Source: Polyangiaceae bacterium
GTDB lineage: Bacteria; Myxococcota_A; Polyangia; Polyangiales; Polyangiaceae
Assembly (NCBI GenBank): GCA_029261965.1
Contig: JAJDAH010000119.1
Location: 1-34,709, forward strand
DNA length: 34,709 bases
Reading direction: 5' to 3'
Position numbers and translations under genes: made by a program. How positions within the stretch are numbered: the stretch's first letter is position 1; every line of letters starts with the position of its first letter. The notes under the pieces were generated by a model. The model was not told the DNA's origin, made no database searches, and saw only the letters and a list, made by a program, of their open reading frames with translations. This document shows positions 14,543 through 21,408 of this stretch, in pieces.

Positions 14543-15559
14543 TCACGGCTCGGCGGAGCGGGCCTCGGCGCCGCGCGACGACGTGCCCACGGCCTCCGTC
14601 GGGTAAAGCACGACGATGGGATAGCTCATGGCGGCGAACGCCCAAGTGCGCAGTCGGCGGATGAGTCCCACCGAGACCCCTGCGGCCGCGCTCATGCCGA
14701 GTAGCTCGAACACGTAGCCATGGCCTCCCTCGAACGCGCCTAACGCGCCGGGAATGAAAGCAAAAGCGGTGTTGACCAGCACACCCACGGCCCCGATGAA
14801 ATACGCCGTGGAAAAGTCGACGGTCATGCCGAGGAGCAAAACAGCGACATACACGTCCACCGAACGAAGCAGCCTCCCCGCCATGTGGGCAATGAACGAC
14901 AGCCAGAGACGCCCCTGACGCTTCGTCCAAAGGGTCGACAAGGTCTGATCGACGCGGTCGAGGCGCTCGCGGGTTTCTGGGCGAATTCGCACTCGAACGA
15001 GCGCGAGCCAGTGGGTGAGGGTGCTCACCAGGCGGCCCCGGGCTTGCTGTCGGATCAGGAATGCAAAACCTACCACCCACATAGCTAGGAGTGTTCCGGC
15101 GGTCGCCAAAGCCGCCGGATGGTCCGAGAGCACGAACACACCCAACATCAACCCCGTGACCATGAAAACGAGGCTGGCCAAGAAGAACATCGTCTTGTCC
15201 AACAGGACGATGCTGCTTCCGGTTTCCAGCCCGACGTGTTTTTTCAGCATGAGAGCTTTCACCGGTTCTCCACCCATGTTGAAAAACGGGGTGAGCGTGT
15301 TGACCGACTCTCCCCCGACTCGGATGAGAAACACCGTGAGCCACTTCATCCGGTGAGCCGGGTCGAACAAGAGCCACATTCCCGTCGCGGCCATCGTGCG
15401 CCACCCGAGGGCGATCAATATGAGCCAGAGAAAGCCCCAGCCGACACTCATCGCGTGAGCGAGCACTTCCTTCGGGCCGGCGCGCCACACCAACACACCC
15501 AAGAGCGTCAGCCCGAGAAGAAGGAGCGCGACGCGCTTGGCCGTGCCTTTTTTTTTCAT
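14543..15559 (-). CDS. LPG_synthase_TM (flippase-like) integral membrane protein
   Basis: A 338-residue polytopic protein of the lysylphosphatidylglycerol-synthase transmembrane group, which also includes HpnL and AglD-like proteins and is often proposed to translocate lipids. Family hallmarks are RVGGESVNTLTPFFNMGGEP (81-100), the G-E-P-V-K-A motif, and PGALGAFEGGHGYVFELLG with the FEG segment. It has about eight hydrophobic helices. Its ATG overlaps the TGA of the sulfotransferase by one base (15559), implying translational coupling. It is the last of four linked genes and could flip the product made by the other three, which is inference. The start codon is followed by a run of A (Met-Lys-Lys-Lys). 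Confidence 0.88.
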   Translation of the reverse strand: MKKKGTAKRVALLLLGLTLLGVLVWRAGPKEVLAHAMSVGWGFLWLILIALGWRTMAATGMWLLFDPAHRMKWLTVFLIRVGGESVNTLTPFFNMGGEPVKALMLKKHVGLETGSSIVLLDKTMFFLASLVFMVTGLMLGVFVLSDHPAALATAGTLLAMWVVGFAFLIRQQARGRLVSTLTHWLALVRVRIRPETRERLDRVDQTLSTLWTKRQGRLWLSFIAHMAGRLLRSVDVYVAVLLLGMTVDFSTAYFIGAVGVLVNTAFAFIPGALGAFEGGHGYVFELLGMSAAAGVSVGLIRRLRTWAFAAMSYPIVVLYPTEAVGTSSRGAEARSAEP

Positions 15560-16404
15560 CAGCCGGAGTAACCGAACCAGGGGTCGAGCTCGTCCTCGAC
15601 GATTTTGGAAATCTTCTCGATGTCCGTGGCGGCCAGGTAGTCCACGTAGCCGCCGACCTTTCCACGCCGAGCCTTGAAGGAGCTCGGATCGCTCGCGTCG
15701 CCGGGGCGCAGACGCTTCGTCGTGTACTGCATCGAGGCCTCGCGCTTGCGAAGCTTTTCGATGTCGTTGGCGCCGACGGAATCTTCGATGACGCCGTCGC
15801 CGATGTCTTTCACCCCCATGAAATCGAGAATCTCACGGAGCTTCCTTTTCGGGTCCGCGTGGATGTCCTCGTAGCGCACGAGCAAGAGCGCTTGGGGCAC
15901 GTCGCGGTTTTGGGCCCAGATGTTGTAGTAACGAATCATGCTGAAGAGCGAGCCGCGCTCTTGCCAGATGAACTCCGGGAGCTCCTTGTCGGTCACCTTC
16001 CAGCGTTTGGTCATCTGAAAGTGCAGCGACACGATGGCGTCGCGCGGATCGCGTACCAGTAGAACGACCTTCTTCTGGCGGTACCGGTCTTTGGTGAGGC
16101 TCAGTTGACGGGGCAGCTTCCAGTGCGGCTCGTCGTCGTGGATGGCCCTGACGAGCGGGATGTTCGGGTGCGCTTCGGTGAACTCGTGGAATTCGAGAGG
16201 TTCCTTCGGAATGATAGCGGTGTGTCTCGACAGCGCGGTGTGAACGAGCAGTCGGACCCAGGTGCCGCCGGTTTTCGGGAACCAGACGATGAAGACGTCG
16301 GCTTTGTGATTTTTGTACCACTGGAGCGGCGAGTAGCGTTCGCCGAAGATCGACAAGCGCGGCTTGAAAAAACCGCGAGCACGTACGGTCAGCGAATCGA
16401 GCAT
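15559..16404 (-). CDS. PAPS-dependent sulfotransferase
   Basis: A 281-residue cytosolic or membrane-associated sulfotransferase. The 5'-phosphosulfate loop is VWFPKTGGTWVR (40-51), the 3'-phosphate motif is RDPRDAIVSL (118-127), and near the C-terminus RRGKVGGYVDYL corresponds to the RKGxxGDWK region of the family. A candidate catalytic His is in RAIHDDEPHW (His89 or His94). The enzyme should move a sulfuryl group from PAPS to a hydroxyl or amine. The substrate is not shown by the sequence. It begins 4 bases after the CDP-alcohol transferase gene ends and overlaps the flippase-like start by one base, so its acceptor is most likely a product of that pathway. Confidence 0.92.
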   Translation of the reverse strand: MLDSLTVRARGFFKPRLSIFGERYSPLQWYKNHKADVFIVWFPKTGGTWVRLLVHTALSRHTAIIPKEPLEFHEFTEAHPNIPLVRAIHDDEPHWKLPRQLSLTKDRYRQKKVVLLVRDPRDAIVSLHFQMTKRWKVTDKELPEFIWQERGSLFSMIRYYNIWAQNRDVPQALLLVRYEDIHADPKRKLREILDFMGVKDIGDGVIEDSVGANDIEKLRKREASMQYTTKRLRPGDASDPSSFKARRGKVGGYVDYLAATDIEKISKIVEDELDPWFGYSG

Positions 16405-16408
16405 GCGC

Positions 16409-17638
16409 TCAGGGTTGCGAGCTCGAGAGCGTCGGTGCGAGACGCGCGCGAGCGCGTGCGGACTTCAGCCAGCCGAGCAGGAAGTACGCGTTGGCGGCGA
16501 GCACGAAGCCGACGACGATGAAAAACAGCACGTGATAGGAGGTGGGGCTCTGCAGGATGGCGGGCAGCACCGCGAGGACCATCAATACGAGGGAAAACTG
16601 GTCGCGCTCGCCGAGCACCTTCACCTTGTCGAGCAGACGAAACAGGAGCCCGGCGCGCTTCTTGTCGACGTTGGCCCGAAAGTCCGACGCGATGGCAGTC
16701 ATCGTGCCGCCGAGCTTGTTCTTGTGCACGTAGAGGAACATCCCGCCGATGAGCACGAAAGTGAGTCCCATCGTTCCGAAGCCGAGCAGGTCGACCCATG
16801 GCGCCCAAGGTGGATTCGTTTCAGCCGCGAACTGCGAATAACCGATCGTGAGGCACAACATGAAGGCGATGTACGTGATGTTGTCCCCGACGGAGTCCAT
16901 CCACGCCCCTCGTTCGCTCTCCATGAACTTGCTGCGGGCGAGCTCGCCGTCGCATCGGTCCAGGGCGGAGCTGAGCTGCATGATGACGCCACCGATGGCG
17001 ATGGCGTAGAAGTTCCCCGTCACGAAGAAGAGCGAGCCGATGATGCCGGTGACGGTGTTGGCGAACGTCATCTGGTTCGGCGTCATCGGCGTCTCGACGA
17101 GGATCTTCGTCAGCGGAATCGAGAAGAGCGAATTGAAGTGTCGGGAGACCGGTCCCGACGTGGCCTTCGTGATGTTTCGGAAGACGGTTCGCTTGGCTTC
17201 ACGCAGGTCGGCCTTCTCTTTTATGGGTACGACGTAAGCGCCGCGCGGAGGGTCTTGCCAGAGCGGCGCCGACGACTCGTGACCCTGACCGTGTTTGACG
17301 AGAAGTGGCGCCCCGGGCACCGAGACGCTGCCACTCGCTTCGTCGATGGCTTTCCACACCGGGTGACCGAGCACGACGTCCGCGCTGGCTTCGACTCGCG
17401 GCAGATCCGTCTCGGGGACCTTGCCCCAGACGATGTTGATGGGCTCGAGTCGTTCGTCGCCGGCGAGCAGCTGCCGGGCGGCGTCGAGTGGATCGCCGAC
17501 GATGACGACTTGTTTCGCTCCGTTCCGGTAGGCACCAATGACTAGTCGGGTCAGCACCGGGACGCGGCACACACGCCAGAACGCCGGGTTGTCTTTCGGC
17601 GCCGCGCTCGGCAACTGCAGGACCAGCTGGAAAGTCAT
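16409..17638 (-). CDS. CDP-alcohol phosphatidyltransferase with degenerate N-terminal nucleotidyltransferase-like domain
   Basis: A 409-residue protein. Residues 1-150 look like an alpha/beta domain with a nucleotidyltransferase-type pattern (RVPVLTRLVIGAYRNGAKQVVIVGD, in pieces 25-49) but lack the GxGTR loop. Residues 155-409 are a membrane CDP-alcohol transferase with the complete motif D227-x2-D230-G-x2-A-R-x8-G244-x3-D248-x3-D252. The lead-in SGPVSRHFNS and ETPMTPNQMT resembles DIPP-synthase-like enzymes, whose archaeal members are fused to an active cytidylyltransferase. Here the active cytidylyltransferase is the separate upstream gene, overlapping by 4 bases (ATGA). It should join a CDP-activated alcohol to a second alcohol in the membrane. 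Confidence 0.9.
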   Translation of the reverse strand: MTFQLVLQLPSAAPKDNPAFWRVCRVPVLTRLVIGAYRNGAKQVVIVGDPLDAARQLLAGDERLEPINIVWGKVPETDLPRVEASADVVLGHPVWKAIDEASGSVSVPGAPLLVKHGQGHESSAPLWQDPPRGAYVVPIKEKADLREAKRTVFRNITKATSGPVSRHFNSLFSIPLTKILVETPMTPNQMTFANTVTGIIGSLFFVTGNFYAIAIGGVIMQLSSALDRCDGELARSKFMESERGAWMDSVGDNITYIAFMLCLTIGYSQFAAETNPPWAPWVDLLGFGTMGLTFVLIGGMFLYVHKNKLGGTMTAIASDFRANVDKKRAGLLFRLLDKVKVLGERDQFSLVLMVLAVLPAILQSPTSYHVLFFIVVGFVLAANAYFLLGWLKSARARARLAPTLSSSQP

Positions 17639-18438
17639 CGCGCGCTTTCACCCTCGCTCGCGGAGGCCGGCGAAGCTAGCGTGACTTTCTCGGGAGTGGT
17701 CGGGCCCTGGGGAAAGAGTCGTTCCGCCGCCCGAAGGTCGTCGACGTCGTCGATTTCCGCCCAACGACGACCACCGACCTGGCAGAGCCCGAGGCTTGCC
17801 GCGCCGCTCTTCACGAGGTCCGCGAGCACGGCCTCGTAGTACTGGTCGTTGCGACCGGCGGCCACGTACTGCCCGAGGGCGGGGAAGTAGGTGTCGACCG
17901 AGAAGTCTCGGGAGAAGCGGTACACGTTCACGGTCTTCTGCGCCCGCGAGTAGTCGAACCCGGGCGGCTGGTCGCGCTTGAGGACCATTCGCTCGGCGAC
18001 GGTGCCCTGTGCCACTACGACCGTGCCGTCCATGAAGTTGCGATATTCGTCGACGAGCGCCGTCGCGGGCCCTTCGGTGTCGCTGATGTCCTCGAAAATC
18101 CCGTAGTCGAGCAGAAGGTCGCTTTCGAGCAGAAGCACGTCGCTCTCGACGTGCTCGCGGGCGAGCCACAGCGAGTAGATGTTGTTCGTCGTCGCAAAAT
18201 CGGGGTTCGCCACGTAGTCGAGCTGCATGCGGTCGAGGCGAGTGCCGAAGGCGGCGCGAATTCGGTCCGCGCGATAGCCGACGACGAGCACCGTGCGCTT
18301 CACCCCCACTGCCTCCAGGGCCTCGAGCATGTAGCCGAGCAGCGGCCGGCCATGAACCGGCACCATGCACTTGGGCTGCTGGCTCGTGAGCGGCTGCAGC
18401 CGCGTGCCCTGGCCTGCGGCCAGAATTATCGCCTGCAC
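17635..18438 (-). CDS. LicC/PntC-like cytidylyltransferase
   Basis: A 267-residue NTP-transferase-fold enzyme. The nucleotide loop is LAAGQGTRLQPLT (6-18) with Lys23. TTNNIYSL (83-90) is a signature shared by phosphocholine (LicC) and phosphonate (PntC) cytidylyltransferases, and metal-binding Asp107 lies in LLLESDLLL. The C-terminal EIDDVDDL (228-235) gives the second metal ligands. It should make a CDP-linked small alcohol or phosphonate from CTP. The GTG at 18438 is chosen because translation upstream of it contains no fold. The next gene overlaps by 4 bases. No pepM is present, so a phosphonate substrate is not supported by context. Confidence 0.9.
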   Translation of the reverse strand: MQAIILAAGQGTRLQPLTSQQPKCMVPVHGRPLLGYMLEALEAVGVKRTVLVVGYRADRIRAAFGTRLDRMQLDYVANPDFATTNNIYSLWLAREHVESDVLLLESDLLLDYGIFEDISDTEGPATALVDEYRNFMDGTVVVAQGTVAERMVLKRDQPPGFDYSRAQKTVNVYRFSRDFSVDTYFPALGQYVAAGRNDQYYEAVLADLVKSGAASLGLCQVGGRRWAEIDDVDDLRAAERLFPQGPTTPEKVTLASPASASEGESAR

Positions 18439-18718: not shown

Positions 18719-20233
18719 TCAGGATCTGACGCCTGTGGCGACCGGATCGACCGCCGGATCCTCGGTGATCGCGGCGTGGCGTTTCAGCAAGAGAAACGTC
18801 GCGCCTAGCCAGATCACGACGAATATCAAGTTGACCGCGGCGATCGTCGGCAGTCCCCAGCCCAGCGCGGAGGTGCCGACCAAAAAAAGCCCCGCGGCGA
18901 GCACGTCGCCGACGCGCACCACGAGCGTGTCGACGGCCTGCTTGGCCTTGTACTTGGCGTCGCGAGTCGTGGGCAGCCACACCATCGCCTTGCCCGTGTT
19001 CATGATCGAGTAGTCGGTCGAATTCTCGGCCGTCTTGGCCCAGCGAAGCGCGACCAGACCAACTCCAGCGGCGAAGAGCCCGTAGGTGCCGAGAGCCACG
19101 ATTGGCAGCGCCAAGAGAACGCCCTTGAGCCCGATGTATTTGGCGATCCGCGACACGACGAAGGCCTGCAACAAGAGCGCCGCGATGTTCACGTAGAAGA
19201 AGAAGTCGCCGTAGAACTTGCCGATGTACGGCCCCGCCGAGCTCACCTCACCGCTGGCAACCGCCGCCTGCGCGTTCTGCACGACGATGTCCGTCAGCAG
19301 TAGCTCACCGGTGGTGTTGACGACGTTGAGCAGCAGAATGACGGCGGCGATGAGTCGGAGGTATGGCGACTTCAAAATGAGCGAGAACCCGCCGCCAGCA
19401 CTGTTCTCGTCTTTCGGCTCGGGCTTCTGGTCGTCCGATCCGGGCTTCTGTGGTGATCCGTCCGAGCGGCGCGCAACGGTGACCATCAACAGCGTGAAGA
19501 CGACCAGAAGAATCACCGGCACCTGAAGCAAGATGAACGACGGATCGACTCCGGAGTCGGCGATCCATTCCTGGAACCCGTCGAGAACCGGCGCTTGGCC
19601 GTCTTTGTTTTCCGGTGCGAGGTAGCCGTAGAAAAGGCTCGCGGCCTTCGCCCCCACGGGACTGCCGGCGGTGGCGCCGACGCCGATGATCGGAAACAGG
19701 CGTTTGCCCTGCTCCTCCGAGTAGATGTCATTTCCGAAGGACCAGAACTGCGCGATCATCGCGACGCTGAAGATGCCGACCCAGATGTAGAAGACGAAAC
19801 CCAGCATCGGCACCGCGGCGAGCCGCATCACGAAAAAAAGCTCGATGCACGCGATGAAGAAGATGCTCACGCCGACGATGAGACGAATCCGCGTGACCTT
19901 CGACGCGAGCCAAGAGTAGGCCGGCACGAAACCGACGAGCAGGAGCGCTTGGAAAGTCGCCGCGACCGCTTTCAGCTGCGCGCCCTCCTGCTTGATGATC
20001 ACGTCTTTGAGCCATTGGGGCAGGCTCGTTTGGGTCACGAGCTGAAGATCTTGAGCCGCCGACGCCGCCACCAACGGCTCGCGCACCGTCTTGAGCACGT
20101 AGTAACAAACGAGCAGGATGAAGATCGTCGACAGCATGACCAGCGCCGTCGACCCCTCACCATTTTTGACCTCACTGAATGGCGCGAGAGCTTTGTCGGT
20201 CAGCGTGCGCTTGGTATTGCCGGCGTCGCTCAT
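18719..20233 (-). CDS. ATP/ADP-translocase-like (Npt1/Npt2) membrane transporter
   Basis: A 504-residue polytopic protein with about 11-12 hydrophobic helices. VLKTVREPLV near residue 50 and MVWLPTTRDAKYKAKQAVDT with VVRVGD near residue 430 are the characteristic segments of nucleotide-exchange carriers first known from Chlamydia and Rickettsia. Many free-living bacteria have divergent members of unproven substrate, so true ATP/ADP exchange should not be assumed. A hydrophilic loop (about 265-295, RRSDGSPQKPGSDDQKPEP) is unusually long. Its ATG overlaps the stop of the SUMF1-fold lipoprotein gene by 4 bases, so the two proteins are translated together. Confidence 0.85.
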   Translation of the reverse strand: MSDAGNTKRTLTDKALAPFSEVKNGEGSTALVMLSTIFILLVCYYVLKTVREPLVAASAAQDLQLVTQTSLPQWLKDVIIKQEGAQLKAVAATFQALLLVGFVPAYSWLASKVTRIRLIVGVSIFFIACIELFFVMRLAAVPMLGFVFYIWVGIFSVAMIAQFWSFGNDIYSEEQGKRLFPIIGVGATAGSPVGAKAASLFYGYLAPENKDGQAPVLDGFQEWIADSGVDPSFILLQVPVILLVVFTLLMVTVARRSDGSPQKPGSDDQKPEPKDENSAGGGFSLILKSPYLRLIAAVILLLNVVNTTGELLLTDIVVQNAQAAVASGEVSSAGPYIGKFYGDFFFYVNIAALLLQAFVVSRIAKYIGLKGVLLALPIVALGTYGLFAAGVGLVALRWAKTAENSTDYSIMNTGKAMVWLPTTRDAKYKAKQAVDTLVVRVGDVLAAGLFLVGTSALGWGLPTIAAVNLIFVVIWLGATFLLLKRHAAITEDPAVDPVATGVRS

Positions 20234-21408
20234 TCGGGTGCCGGTAGGTGCGACCCGTCGGCGTCTTTGGCGTTGTCACCCATGGTGGTGCCGCAGAGCG
20301 TGTTGCAGATGAGCGCGGAGCGGGGACAACGGCTGTTACCCGGACACGGTTTGCAGTCGCAGTGCCCCTTTTTCTTCTTGAGCTCCAGCATGTCTTGTAC
20401 TTCCACGCGGGTGAAGCCGGCGAGCTTCTCCACCGACTCGAAGCGCCACTCCTTCTTCTTTTGCTTTGGCGTACGCGGATCGGTCTCTTTGCCGTCCGCC
20501 TCGGCGCAGCAACGGAAGCCGAGGAAGTAGTAGTAGAAGCCCTCGTTGTGCGTGTAGATTTTCGGGCGGCACTGGTTGCGCACGCCTTTGTACCAAGGTC
20601 CGCCGGTGTTCACGCTGTCGAACTTGCCTCGCCAGTTCTTGGTGAAGGTTTCGCTCGAGACGACCTCGTCGTTGTTGCCCGGTAGATCGGCGACGCCGAA
20701 GTCGCTGATGCACTCGGGTTGGCTGCCGCTCGGCACACCGTGCCAGAGCCGAGCGATCTCCCGGGCGTTGCGATAGCCCACTCGCTTCATGTCGGGGGAG
20801 TCCCACATGTGGTCGCCGTTGCACTTGCGTGCATCGCGTACGTAGCCGTGAGGGAAAGGTTTCATCTCCGGCCCCTCGCAAGCGAAGGTCCACTCGCTCT
20901 CGGTGCAGAGGCGCTTGCCGATGCCCGCGCACTTGACCTGCGCCTGGTAGTAGTTGTTCATGACCTCCGGGCGCTCGCCCAACTTGTTGGGCCAAGCGTA
21001 GGTGTCGATGCAGTAGCGTTTTTTGACCTTGTTCCCGATACACACGGTCGGCGGAGTGAACTCCTCACAGACCTTCTTCTTGTTCGACTTGTCGAACCAG
21101 CTCTTGTTGCAGGTCTGTTTCACCTCGGTGCAGTACTCGCCGTCGACGAGCTTCATGCCCGAGGGGCACGCCCCCGATTCGGCGGGAGTCTCTTTGCCCG
21201 GCGCGGGATCGCCCGCGGTGGGTCCTGTGGCCGTCGAAGTCGGACCCGGGGCGGTGGGGGGTGCGGTGCCGCTCGCCAATGAAGCCTCGGTCGGAGCCGG
21301 CGAGTCGCCGGCCCCCGGCGGGACCGATTCGTCGGGCACCTCCGGGACTTGGGGGGTCGCGGCACACGCGATGATGAAAGCGAGCGGGACGGCAGAGTAT
21401 CGGCGCAC
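20230..21408 (-). CDS. SUMF1/FGE-fold lipoprotein
   Basis: A 392-residue lipoprotein (FIIAC, Cys15) with a Pro/Ala/Thr-rich linker to about residue 80. The SUMF1 fold follows: CPSGMKLVDGEYC, YCIDTYAWPN, AQVKCAGIGKRLCTESEWTFAC, and the end GFYYYFLGFRCC. Numerous extra cysteines occur, including a C-terminal CDCKPCPGNSRCPRSALICNTLC cluster (given here only in outline) that may be disulfide-bonded or bind metal. I do not see the formylglycine-generating active-site cysteine pair, so a structural or binding role is more likely than sulfatase maturation. GTG start at 21408. It begins 9 bases after truD and overlaps the transporter by 4. Confidence 0.88.
   Translation of the reverse strand: MRRYSAVPLAFIIACAATPQVPEVPDESVPPGAGDSPAPTEASLASGTAPPTAPGPTSTATGPTAGDPAPGKETPAESGACPSGMKLVDGEYCTEVKQTCNKSWFDKSNKKKVCEEFTPPTVCIGNKVKKRYCIDTYAWPNKLGERPEVMNNYYQAQVKCAGIGKRLCTESEWTFACEGPEMKPFPHGYVRDARKCNGDHMWDSPDMKRVGYRNAREIARLWHGVPSGSQPECISDFGVADLPGNNDEVVSSETFTKNWRGKFDSVNTGGPWYKGVRNQCRPKIYTHNEGFYYYFLGFRCCAEADGKETDPRTPKQKKKEWRFESVEKLAGFTRVEVQDMLELKKKKGHCDCKPCPGNSRCPRSALICNTLCGTTMGDNAKDADGSHLPAPE

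Follow-up and report, generated by a model that had tools for sequence, protein, structure and literature searches.

PAPS-dependent sulfation of a membrane lipid occurs in the making of sulfolipid-1 of Mycobacterium tuberculosis and of animal sulfatide, both of which are glycolipids formed with no CDP-activated headgroup step. A putative inositol-lipid cluster of Bacteroides vulgatus and Prevotella contains an NTP transferase and a CDP-alcohol phosphatidyltransferase that are thought to yield a CDP-activated headgroup and a phospholipid, together with MIPS, a HAD hydrolase and, nearby, a homologue of LPG synthase; a sulfotransferase is not named in the portion of the report drawn on here (PMC9246714). 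The operon described below, which lies in a 34,709-nucleotide stretch of DNA from a Polyangiaceae bacterium (the whole stretch analysed, hereafter the window), is predicted to resemble this type of CDP-headgroup lipid cluster, with the sulfotransferase added as a new part. It shares with that cluster the nucleotidyltransferase, the CDP-alcohol transferase and the LPG synthase homologue, and differs from it in that a sulfotransferase is present, the cytidylyltransferase falls outside the MIPS-linked IPCT-type clade, MIPS is absent from its contig (C23; the single MIPS match of the genome is on contig C236), and no HAD hydrolase occurs among the nine proteins in and around the operon that were scanned with Pfam. 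PAPS-dependent lipid sulfation is the predicted likeness to sulfolipid-1 and sulfatide, whereas a CDP-activated headgroup step belongs only to the pathway proposed for the window. The first-pass annotation knew of no described pathway with this exact combination, and the four genes are likewise named together in no open-licence title or abstract that we found, in a search with subscription journals mostly outside its scope.

The operon occupies positions 14543-18438 of the minus strand and consists, in order of transcription, of the following genes:

17635..18438, minus strand: LicC/PntC-type cytidylyltransferase (NTP_transf_3), 267 aa, GTG start; called from Pfam, motif and structure matches
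16409..17638, minus strand: CDP-alcohol phosphotransferase (CDP-OH_P), 409 aa; called from Pfam and the full catalytic motif
15559..16404, minus strand: PAPS-type sulfotransferase, 281 aa; called from Pfam and motifs
14543..15559, minus strand: LPG_synthase_TM/flippase-like membrane protein, HpnL-like, 338 aa; called from Pfam and NCBIfam

Along the operon, the first two genes overlap by 4 nt (ATGA), the second and third stand 4 nt apart, and the last two overlap by 1 nt (TGATG). The placement of the genes, their common strand and their spacing (-4, +4 and -1 nt) agree with the first-pass annotation, as do its four family labels, all of which score above the Pfam cut-off. The frame of the cytidylyltransferase is open up to 18669 and homology starts only at 18438. 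Homologues at 36-58% identity back all four reading frames, and signature motifs are intact in the cytidylyltransferase, the CDP-OH_P protein and the sulfotransferase, the three proteins covered by the motif check.

The cytidylyltransferase exceeds the curated cut-offs for NTP_transf_3 (48.8 bits) and NTP_transferase (44.9 bits). LicC (1jyk) is its top match among solved structures in single-sequence and profile searches alike, with a phmmer E-value (7.2e-17) that is the best obtained yet marks a distant relationship; PntC (6pd1) comes 13th among the single-sequence matches and 3rd with the profile, where PntC and IPCT are among the next-best matches after LicC and the alignment contains one IPCT-type row. 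Judged by sequence, 'LicC/PntC', the label of the first-pass annotation, is a fair one. The protein carries GQGTRLQPLTSQQPK, which fits the consensus GxG(T/S)Rx4-8PK of LicC/PntC-type enzymes, and its residues E105 and E202 align, in sequence alignment only, with PntC E104 and E196, described in the part of the PntC report used here as facing the amine (PMC6697681). E202 is common to many cousins, and the alignment with LicC shifts by one residue between the single-sequence and the profile search. The window enzyme has in common with LicC and PntC a sequence family, the GxG(T/S)R..PK motif and, going by the alignment, acidic residues that may face the amine, but it is distant from both, is tied to a membrane CDP-OH_P protein and a sulfotransferase, and by Pfam has neither a PEP mutase nor an aminotransferase domain fused to it. 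Its score against the IPCT-DIPPS family (NF041135) is 61.3 bits, below the cut-off of 580, and a structure prediction for the protein alone reached a pLDDT of 37.1, too low for fold comparison.

The CDP-OH_P protein matches CDP-OH_P_transf with 42.4 bits, above the curated Pfam cut-off, and has the full motif DxxDGxxARx8Gx3Dx3D at position 227. The motif DxxDGxxAR...Gx3Dx3D, which is the CDP-alcohol phosphotransferase catalytic motif (PMC9246714), is present in all eight CDP-OH_P proteins checked, including that of the window. An N-terminal part of about 150 residues, with a mixed alpha/beta predicted secondary structure, precedes the membrane CDP-OH_P domain. The nearest solved relatives, AF2299 (4o6m) and the bifunctional IPCT-DIPPS (4mnd), share the catalytic motif, the membrane domain and an extra N-terminal part before it. 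In contrast to IPCT-DIPPS, the N-terminal part of the window protein gives no Pfam NTP_transferase match, and although IPCT-DIPPS (NF041135) is its best NCBIfam match (5e-24), the score of 85.1 bits is far below the cut-off of 580. Structure prediction for this protein and one homologue gave a pLDDT of 46.6, again too low for fold comparison.

The sulfotransferase scores 80.1 bits against Sulfotransfer_1 (cut-off 22) and also exceeds the Pfam cut-off for Sulfotransfer_3. PKxGGTW, VRDPRD...S and R[RK]GxxGG, motifs that we take to be PAPS-binding, are kept in all seven close members of the family, that of the window included; the profile aligns with structures of cytosolic sulfotransferases along its positions 39-283, and a crude hydropathy scan detected no membrane segment. 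APS kinase, which is required for PAPS, was found above cut-off in each of the five carriers searched. The last protein of the operon matches LPG_synthase_TM (PF03706; 95.4 bits against a cut-off of 33.4) and the NCBIfam 'flippase-like domain' TIGR00374 (51.5 against 43.2 bits). It resembles HpnL/LPG_synthase_TM proteins (TIGR03476, PF03706) in being a membrane protein that matches over residues 14-309 of 338, but it misses the HpnL subfamily cut-off (118.3 against 195.65 bits for TIGR03476) and sits with sulfotransferase genes.

The four genes are a real set, the signs of which are their families, their intact signature motifs and their co-conservation in rearranged order. Searches of 317 genomes of the class (178 of them with a completeness of 90% or more and a contamination of 5% or less), in which the best 5-8 first-look candidates per genome were scored, placed the close sulfotransferase clade at seven loci in five genomes. 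The first-pass annotation would have taken a sulfotransferase or flippase-like gene that is not conserved beside its partners as refuting the system, and the searches did not show this: all seven loci have a CDP-OH_P gene no more than 4.3 kb away (directly adjacent in six), and four of the five genomes that carry the flippase clade have the close sulfotransferase clade 0-7 kb away. All five flippase-clade genes lie within about 7 kb of some sulfotransferase gene: the two adjoin in three genomes, in G246 they are about 7 kb apart with other genes in between, and in G252 a different, unrelated sulfotransferase is directly upstream. Both clades occur almost exclusively in one small group of the 317 genomes, where they are near CDP-OH_P genes. 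CDP-OH_P proteins of the window type (E<=1e-45) occur in four copies in the class set, each directly upstream of the sulfotransferase clade, and at 29 control loci of more distant CDP-OH_P relatives no sulfotransferase of the window clade was present in the flanking DNA examined (about 1.5 kb at most). All four families occur together at two of the seven loci, or at three if a MOP/Wzx-like flippase, found upstream of the set in G264 in place of the flippase clade, is counted. The idea of a four-gene system is supported in part: the sulfotransferase, flippase and CDP-OH_P genes co-occur, and the cytidylyltransferase is inside the cluster at only three of the seven loci. In G246 it is on a separate contig, and G244 (a genome that is 89% complete) gave no match to it at E<=1e-35. 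The conserved order in distant genomes that had been looked for did not emerge, as gene order differs between loci and the carriers belong to two families within one order and so are not independent.

That the four genes are mere neighbours with no common product, the sulfotransferase acting elsewhere, is very unlikely. Tight gene spacing is common in bacterial genomes, the window's own genome holds 36 first-look candidates for sulfotransferase-like sequences, and more distant sulfotransferases lack the partners: in a draw of 377 genomes from the phylum, 23 matched at E<=1e-40, of which 19 belong to other classes, and 16 loci from these 19 genomes (32-38% identity) had no partner genes in flanking stretches no longer than 1.5 kb, nor did the distant sulfotransferases (33-39%) of G240 and G133, within the class, in the stretches examined. 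Set against this is co-occurrence that is specific to the clade and persists despite the rearranged order, with naive overlap odds, uncorrected for kinship, of 6e-8 for the flippase and 1e-8 for the cytidylyltransferase (the latter at a cut-off picked after viewing the list).

We propose that the operon directs a short pathway. The cytidylyltransferase would use CTP to activate a small amino alcohol phosphate, for which ethanolamine phosphate or something closely related is the likeliest candidate. From the CDP-activated donor, the membrane CDP-OH_P protein would transfer the phosphate headgroup to the hydroxyl of a lipid, for instance diacylglycerol or ceramide. The sulfotransferase, with PAPS, would sulfate a hydroxyl or amine on the product or on the lipid acceptor, and the LPG_synthase_TM protein would bring the anionic lipid to the other side of the inner membrane. 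A sulfated lipid of some kind, with inositol and phosphonate headgroups counted in, is the probable product. For the narrower claim of an exported sulfated lipid phosphodiester with a headgroup other than inositol or a phosphonate, we would put the case at slightly short of evenly balanced. More tentatively still, the product may represent an undescribed lipid class, a sulfated aminoalcohol phospholipid or sulfated ceramide-phospho-aminoalcohol made by a Kennedy-type route with a dedicated sulfotransferase and flippase; we keep this suggestion cautious in view of the inositol clusters that contain cousins of the cytidylyltransferase. If the proposal is correct, it would extend the headgroup chemistry known from CDP-dependent phospholipid synthesis by sulfation and give a cargo class to PF03706, a flippase-like family with poorly defined cargoes, and the swaps to an unrelated sulfotransferase in G252 and an unrelated flippase type in G264 would single out sulfation and flipping as what is conserved. 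The gene set is small and would be testable by lipidomics and heterologous expression.

A lipid product fits with the DAG-kinase-like gene present in the G243 and G246 clusters. The same two clusters have a further gene (L064:6457-7452 and L158:5709-6653) for which neither copy gave a Pfam match and the G243 copy gave no NCBIfam match, and which may resemble the Tam41 CDP-diacylglycerol synthase. The DAG-kinase-like genes also count against a non-lipid product, namely a sulfated phosphodiester that is soluble or sits at the cell surface, such as a di-myo-inositol-phosphate-like osmolyte or a surface-glycan decoration, and of which the flippase-like protein would move a carrier-linked intermediate. 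Such a product is suggested by the top-scoring NCBIfam family for the CDP-OH_P protein, since the DIPPS family makes a soluble diester, by the MOP/Wzx-like polysaccharide flippase of G264 and by the varied surface pathways in which PF03706 proteins are found; no glycosyltransferase family was detected by Pfam among the cluster genes scanned, which were part of the neighbouring genes, and we consider this product unlikely.

For the headgroup donor of the proposed sulfated lipid, we favour an amino alcohol phosphate on the basis of the PntC-like glutamates (E[SAG]D with YYE corresponds to PntC E104 and E196), the CobD-fused relatives of the cytidylyltransferase and the separation of its clade from the MIPS-linked enzymes. 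In a tree of 29 rows, the window enzyme falls inside an 11-row set (94/93, slightly below the tool's strong-support mark and with no settled branching inside the set), and a wider set comprises 13 rows (97/91). The 11-row set includes two cytidylyltransferases fused to CobD-like PLP domains. A CDP-OH_P gene follows each of the two; one of these genes is PssA-like and the other is 59% identical to it. 6oux/SMUL_1544 is reported to have a role in making ethanolamine phosphate.

Inositol is the main rival. In this alternative, the cytidylyltransferase would produce CDP-inositol, the CDP-OH_P protein would deliver inositol phosphate from it to a lipid and the sulfotransferase would act on the inositol ring, giving a sulfated inositol phospholipid or inositol-phosphoceramide, an outcome we rate as rather improbable although ahead of a non-lipid product. 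The match to DIPPS and AF2299 and the MIPS locus had made inositol the favoured headgroup at an earlier stage; besides IPCT-DIPPS as best NCBIfam match and 4mnd among the solved relatives, the single MIPS gene of the genome adjoins two CDP-OH_P genes, an IPCT-like enzyme and two radical SAM genes, and a radical SAM gene of G264, 68% identical to one at that locus, is 10 nt upstream of the CDP-OH_P/sulfotransferase pair. Cousins of the cytidylyltransferase stand beside an IPCT-type enzyme and a CDP-OH_P gene in L145, L149 and L151 (with MIPS also in the cluster in L145 and L151), and in G128 a member of the wider set (L142) is about 4 kb from MIPS. The putative inositol-lipid cluster of B. vulgatus, with its NTP transferase and CDP-OH_P pair near MIPS, points the same way. 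However, the three MIPS loci found in carriers each have their own IPCT-type cytidylyltransferase, and these form a clade (100/100) apart from the window enzyme; MIPS was not found in G246 (94% complete) or G244, both of which carry the sulfotransferase and flippase; and the window clade reads E[SAG]D where 4jd0, which we take to be an IPCT, has CGD and 2xme has MGD. Inositol was demoted because of these IPCT-type enzymes at the MIPS loci, the tree separation and the CobD-like fusions of the two relatives, and is kept as first rival because some inositol clusters do contain cousins of the window enzyme. Two cytidylyltransferase clades are thereby told apart that a single Pfam label would merge.

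A phosphonate headgroup such as aminoethylphosphonate, giving a sulfated phosphonolipid, was also considered, in view of the PntC-like glutamates and of a PEP mutase with the motif EDKxxxxxNS encoded in the window's own genome. We regard it as highly improbable and set it aside, as four of the seven genomes searched match PF13714 but only the window's own has the motif, and there the PEP mutase is on another contig, in the same frame as an apparent CTP_transf_like domain (from reading the sequence, not from Pfam).

Two types of CDP-OH_P protein partner the one sulfotransferase clade, and as they are only 24-29% identical over their aligned parts, the donor or the acceptor may differ between clusters. 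Separately, a wide contig scan with the CDP-OH_P protein returned two loci, L039 (51%), which entered the analysis, and L040 (37% over 95 residues), the second of which, from a Clostridiales MAG, has a weak cytidylyltransferase match about 3.4 kb from the CDP-OH_P match.

The first-pass annotation placed four minus-strand genes at 14543-18438 of the window and proposed that they make a sulfated phospholipid or phosphodiester lipid and then move the product across the membrane. We find the genes as claimed, with Pfam matches above cut-off to the cytidylyltransferase, CDP-alcohol transferase (CDP-OH_P), sulfotransferase and LPG_synthase_TM flippase families, and the junctions of -4, +4 and -1 nt between them are borne out on the sequence. 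The three enzymes keep their signature motifs intact: the cytidylyltransferase has GxG[TS]R..PK, the CDP-OH_P protein has DxxDGxxARx8Gx3Dx3D, and the sulfotransferase has PKxGGTW, VRDPRD...S and R[RK]GxxGG. The window is an entire contig (C23, 34,709 bases) of a 9.59-Mb genome in 480 contigs (G000). Upstream of the operon lie:

18719-20233, minus strand, TLC ATP/ADP-translocase-like protein (PF03219, 60.5 bits), its gene ending 280 nt upstream of the operon
20230-21408, minus strand, FGE-sulfatase-domain protein, its gene overlapping the TLC-like gene by 4 nt

TLC proteins are chiefly familiar from plastids and from bacteria that live inside cells, which makes such a gene unusual in a 9.6-Mb genome.

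A profile built from the window sulfotransferase and two relatives gave nine matches in 7 of the 317 genomes of the class (E<=1e-30); the class searches scored, for each genome, its 5-8 best first-look candidates, and of the 317 genomes 178 reach 90% completeness or more with contamination of 5% or less. Seven close loci (E<=1.4e-113) fall in five genomes, here called carriers. The matches in G240 and G133 are distant (33-39%), and partner genes are absent from the stretches fetched around them. At all seven close loci a CDP-OH_P gene lies within 4.3 kb of the sulfotransferase gene:

Window, CDP-OH_P directly upstream
C48, second copy in G000, CDP-OH_P directly upstream
G264 (L039), CDP-OH_P directly upstream
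G264 (L062), CDP-OH_P directly upstream
G246 (L063), CDP-OH_P divergent and adjacent
G244 (L065), CDP-OH_P divergent and adjacent, truncated at the contig end
G243 (L064), CDP-OH_P about 4.3 kb away

One of the two G264 loci is placed as in the locus of record JAEPMI010000008.1. Two types of CDP-OH_P accompany this sulfotransferase clade. The window type has four copies among the 317 genomes (E<=1e-45), each adjoined by a sulfotransferase; the second type (G243, G246 and G244, the G244 piece being assigned by its match to the G243 protein) shares only 24-29% identity with the first over the aligned part. On C48 the CDP-OH_P copy (L041:7408-8487) is interrupted by an in-frame TAG, and the adjoining sulfotransferase frame is open. 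The control was a set of 29 loci from 97 related genomes that hold more remote CDP-OH_P relatives; their flanking sequence, up to about 1.5 kb of it, contained no clade sulfotransferase. APS kinase was found in all five carriers.

The window flippase clade occurs in 5 of the 317 genomes at E<=1e-40 (G000, G243, G244, G246 and G252). The flippase and sulfotransferase genes are neighbours in the window, in G243 and in G244; in G246 they stand about 7 kb apart, with several genes in between. The chance of such an overlap between flippase and sulfotransferase genomes is 6e-8, a naive figure that ignores kinship, four of the five sulfotransferase genomes belonging to one family. G252 yielded nothing from the close sulfotransferase clade at E<=1e-30; at L157:9332-11238 its flippase gene is preceded, at a distance of 98 nt, by a gene for a sulfotransferase from a different subfamily (Sulfotransfer_3, 50.6 bits; Sulfotransfer_1, 30.6 bits; both above cut-off). 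Farther upstream only a 58-residue piece resembling CDP-OH_P was matched, no intact CDP-OH_P frame was found, and the full four-family set was not seen there. In G264 no flippase of the window clade was found at E<=1e-40, and at its second locus a MOP/Wzx-like flippase gene (PF13440, 28.5 bits against a cut-off of 23) lies 49 nt upstream of the CDP-OH_P, sulfotransferase and cytidylyltransferase genes. The predicted functions of sulfation and membrane transfer thus come back with a different protein in the role, a sulfotransferase from another subfamily in G252 and the MOP flippase in G264.

A profile of the window-type cytidylyltransferase (CYTIDYLYLTRANSFERASE) matched 44 of the 317 genomes at E<=1e-35, with the best four (E<=7.7e-98) being G264, G000, G243 and G246. 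Because its gene is clustered only in the window, L062 and L064, the four families occur together at two of the seven loci, or at three if the MOP flippase is counted. In G246 it lies on a separate contig, and in G244 it was not found at E<=1e-35. The available stretches of L039 and C48, where the contig ends at most about 1.1 kb upstream of CDP-OH_P, hold neither a clade flippase nor a cytidylyltransferase gene. Gene order differs between the three clusters (NTP, cytidylyltransferase; CDP, CDP-OH_P; ST, sulfotransferase):

Window, NTP-CDP-ST-flippase
G264, MOP-CDP-ST-NTP
G243, ST-flippase-...-CDP-NTP

Overall, the proposal that the operon makes and moves a sulfated lipid is supported in part.

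Three additional genes are common to the G243 and G246 clusters:

MobA-like nucleotidyltransferase, 69% identical between the two
DAG-kinase-like lipid kinase, 56%
Gene without a Pfam family, beside the DAG-kinase-like gene (L064:6457-7452 in G243, L158:5709-6653 in G246), 58%

The presence of the lipid-kinase-like gene favours a lipid as the product.

Inositol was examined first as the headgroup, because, among solved structures, AF2299 and IPCT-DIPPS, an inositol enzyme, come closest to the CDP-OH_P protein, and because G000 has one gene for inositol-phosphate synthase (MIPS). Cousins of the window cytidylyltransferase also occupy inositol-type clusters in G059, G064 and G235 (L145, L149 and L151; MIPS in L145 and L151), which hold two different cytidylyltransferases, one of the IPCT type, and a CDP-OH_P, and a further relative in G128 (L142), from a 13-row set of the tree (97/91), lies about 4 kb from MIPS. 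However, each of the three MIPS loci in the carriers has its own nearby cytidylyltransferase of another type; in a tree of 29 rows these and three similar enzymes form a clade (100/100) apart from the window enzyme, and MIPS was not found in the carrier genomes G246 and G244. The window enzyme falls in an 11-row set nested in the 13-row one; beside it are its three counterparts from the carriers (L064, L062, L136), a pair of fusion proteins, and five more rows, of which two are identical. The set's support of 94/93 is just below the tool's strong-support mark, with no resolution inside the fork. The window set has E[SAG]D at positions 105-107, like PntC (LLLESD), whereas 2xme (IPCT) has MGD and 4jd0 CGD. 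In a sequence alignment, E105 and E202 align with PntC E104 and E196, which the published account places near the substrate amine, LicC having aspartates there (PMC6697681). Since E202 is common to many cousins, only E105 discriminates.

The two fusion proteins, from two genera, join the cytidylyltransferase to a PLP domain:

L137:267-2189 (G199), followed by a PssA-like CDP-OH_P gene
L138:6007-7977 (G006), followed by a CDP-OH_P gene with 59% identity to the one in L137

Their best NCBIfam match is CobD, and as the scores lie below its cut-off we regard the domains as kin of CobD and not members; the nearest solved structure to that of G199 is 6oux, a threonine-phosphate-decarboxylase-like enzyme. 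CobD-type enzymes produce amino alcohol phosphates, and each fusion with its CDP-OH_P gene could possibly form a self-contained amino alcohol phospholipid pathway. With modest confidence, we favour ethanolamine phosphate or a closely related compound over inositol as the headgroup.

From family and linkage, the cytidylyltransferase would convert CTP and an amino alcohol phosphate to a CDP-amino alcohol, CDP-OH_P would combine this with a lipid alcohol to give a phospholipid and CMP, and the sulfotransferase would use PAPS to sulfate that phospholipid or its acceptor; the flippase would last move the predicted sulfated lipid across the membrane. The window set yields a specific, testable prediction. 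The nearest described system we found comes from Bacteroides vulgatus and Prevotella: a putative alternative inositol-lipid cluster in which an NTP transferase, a CDP-alcohol phosphatidyltransferase and a HAD hydrolase lie near MIPS, and a homologue of LPG synthase is encoded nearby (PMC9246714). The first two steps, putative in both, would work alike, but the window contig has no MIPS, no HAD hydrolase was matched among the nine window proteins scanned at and near the operon, and a sulfotransferase is added. Among the titles and abstracts found in an open-licence paper library, none describes the four-gene combination.

Related genes occur elsewhere in G000. On C236 the sole MIPS gene is grouped (L042:487-7703) with an IPCT-like cytidylyltransferase gene and two genes each for CDP-OH_P and radical SAM proteins, and a radical SAM gene whose product is 68% identical to one of these radical SAM proteins lies 10 nt upstream of the CDP-OH_P and sulfotransferase pair in L039; radical SAM chemistry may modify the lipids of these clusters. 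On C442 (L043:5564-8032) a CDP-OH_P gene, its product 63% identical to one copy at the MIPS locus, is divergent from a neighbour that, as named by sequence reading and with uncertain start codons, resembles a serine palmitoyltransferase or AONS-family enzyme, hinting at phospho-sphingolipids. On C141 (L095:2710-7669) a PEP mutase with the EDKxxxxxNS motif is in frame with a cytidylyltransferase-like N-terminus, upstream of alcohol-dehydrogenase-like and glycerophosphotransferase-like genes (likewise named by reading), and these genes probably represent a separate phosphonate pathway.
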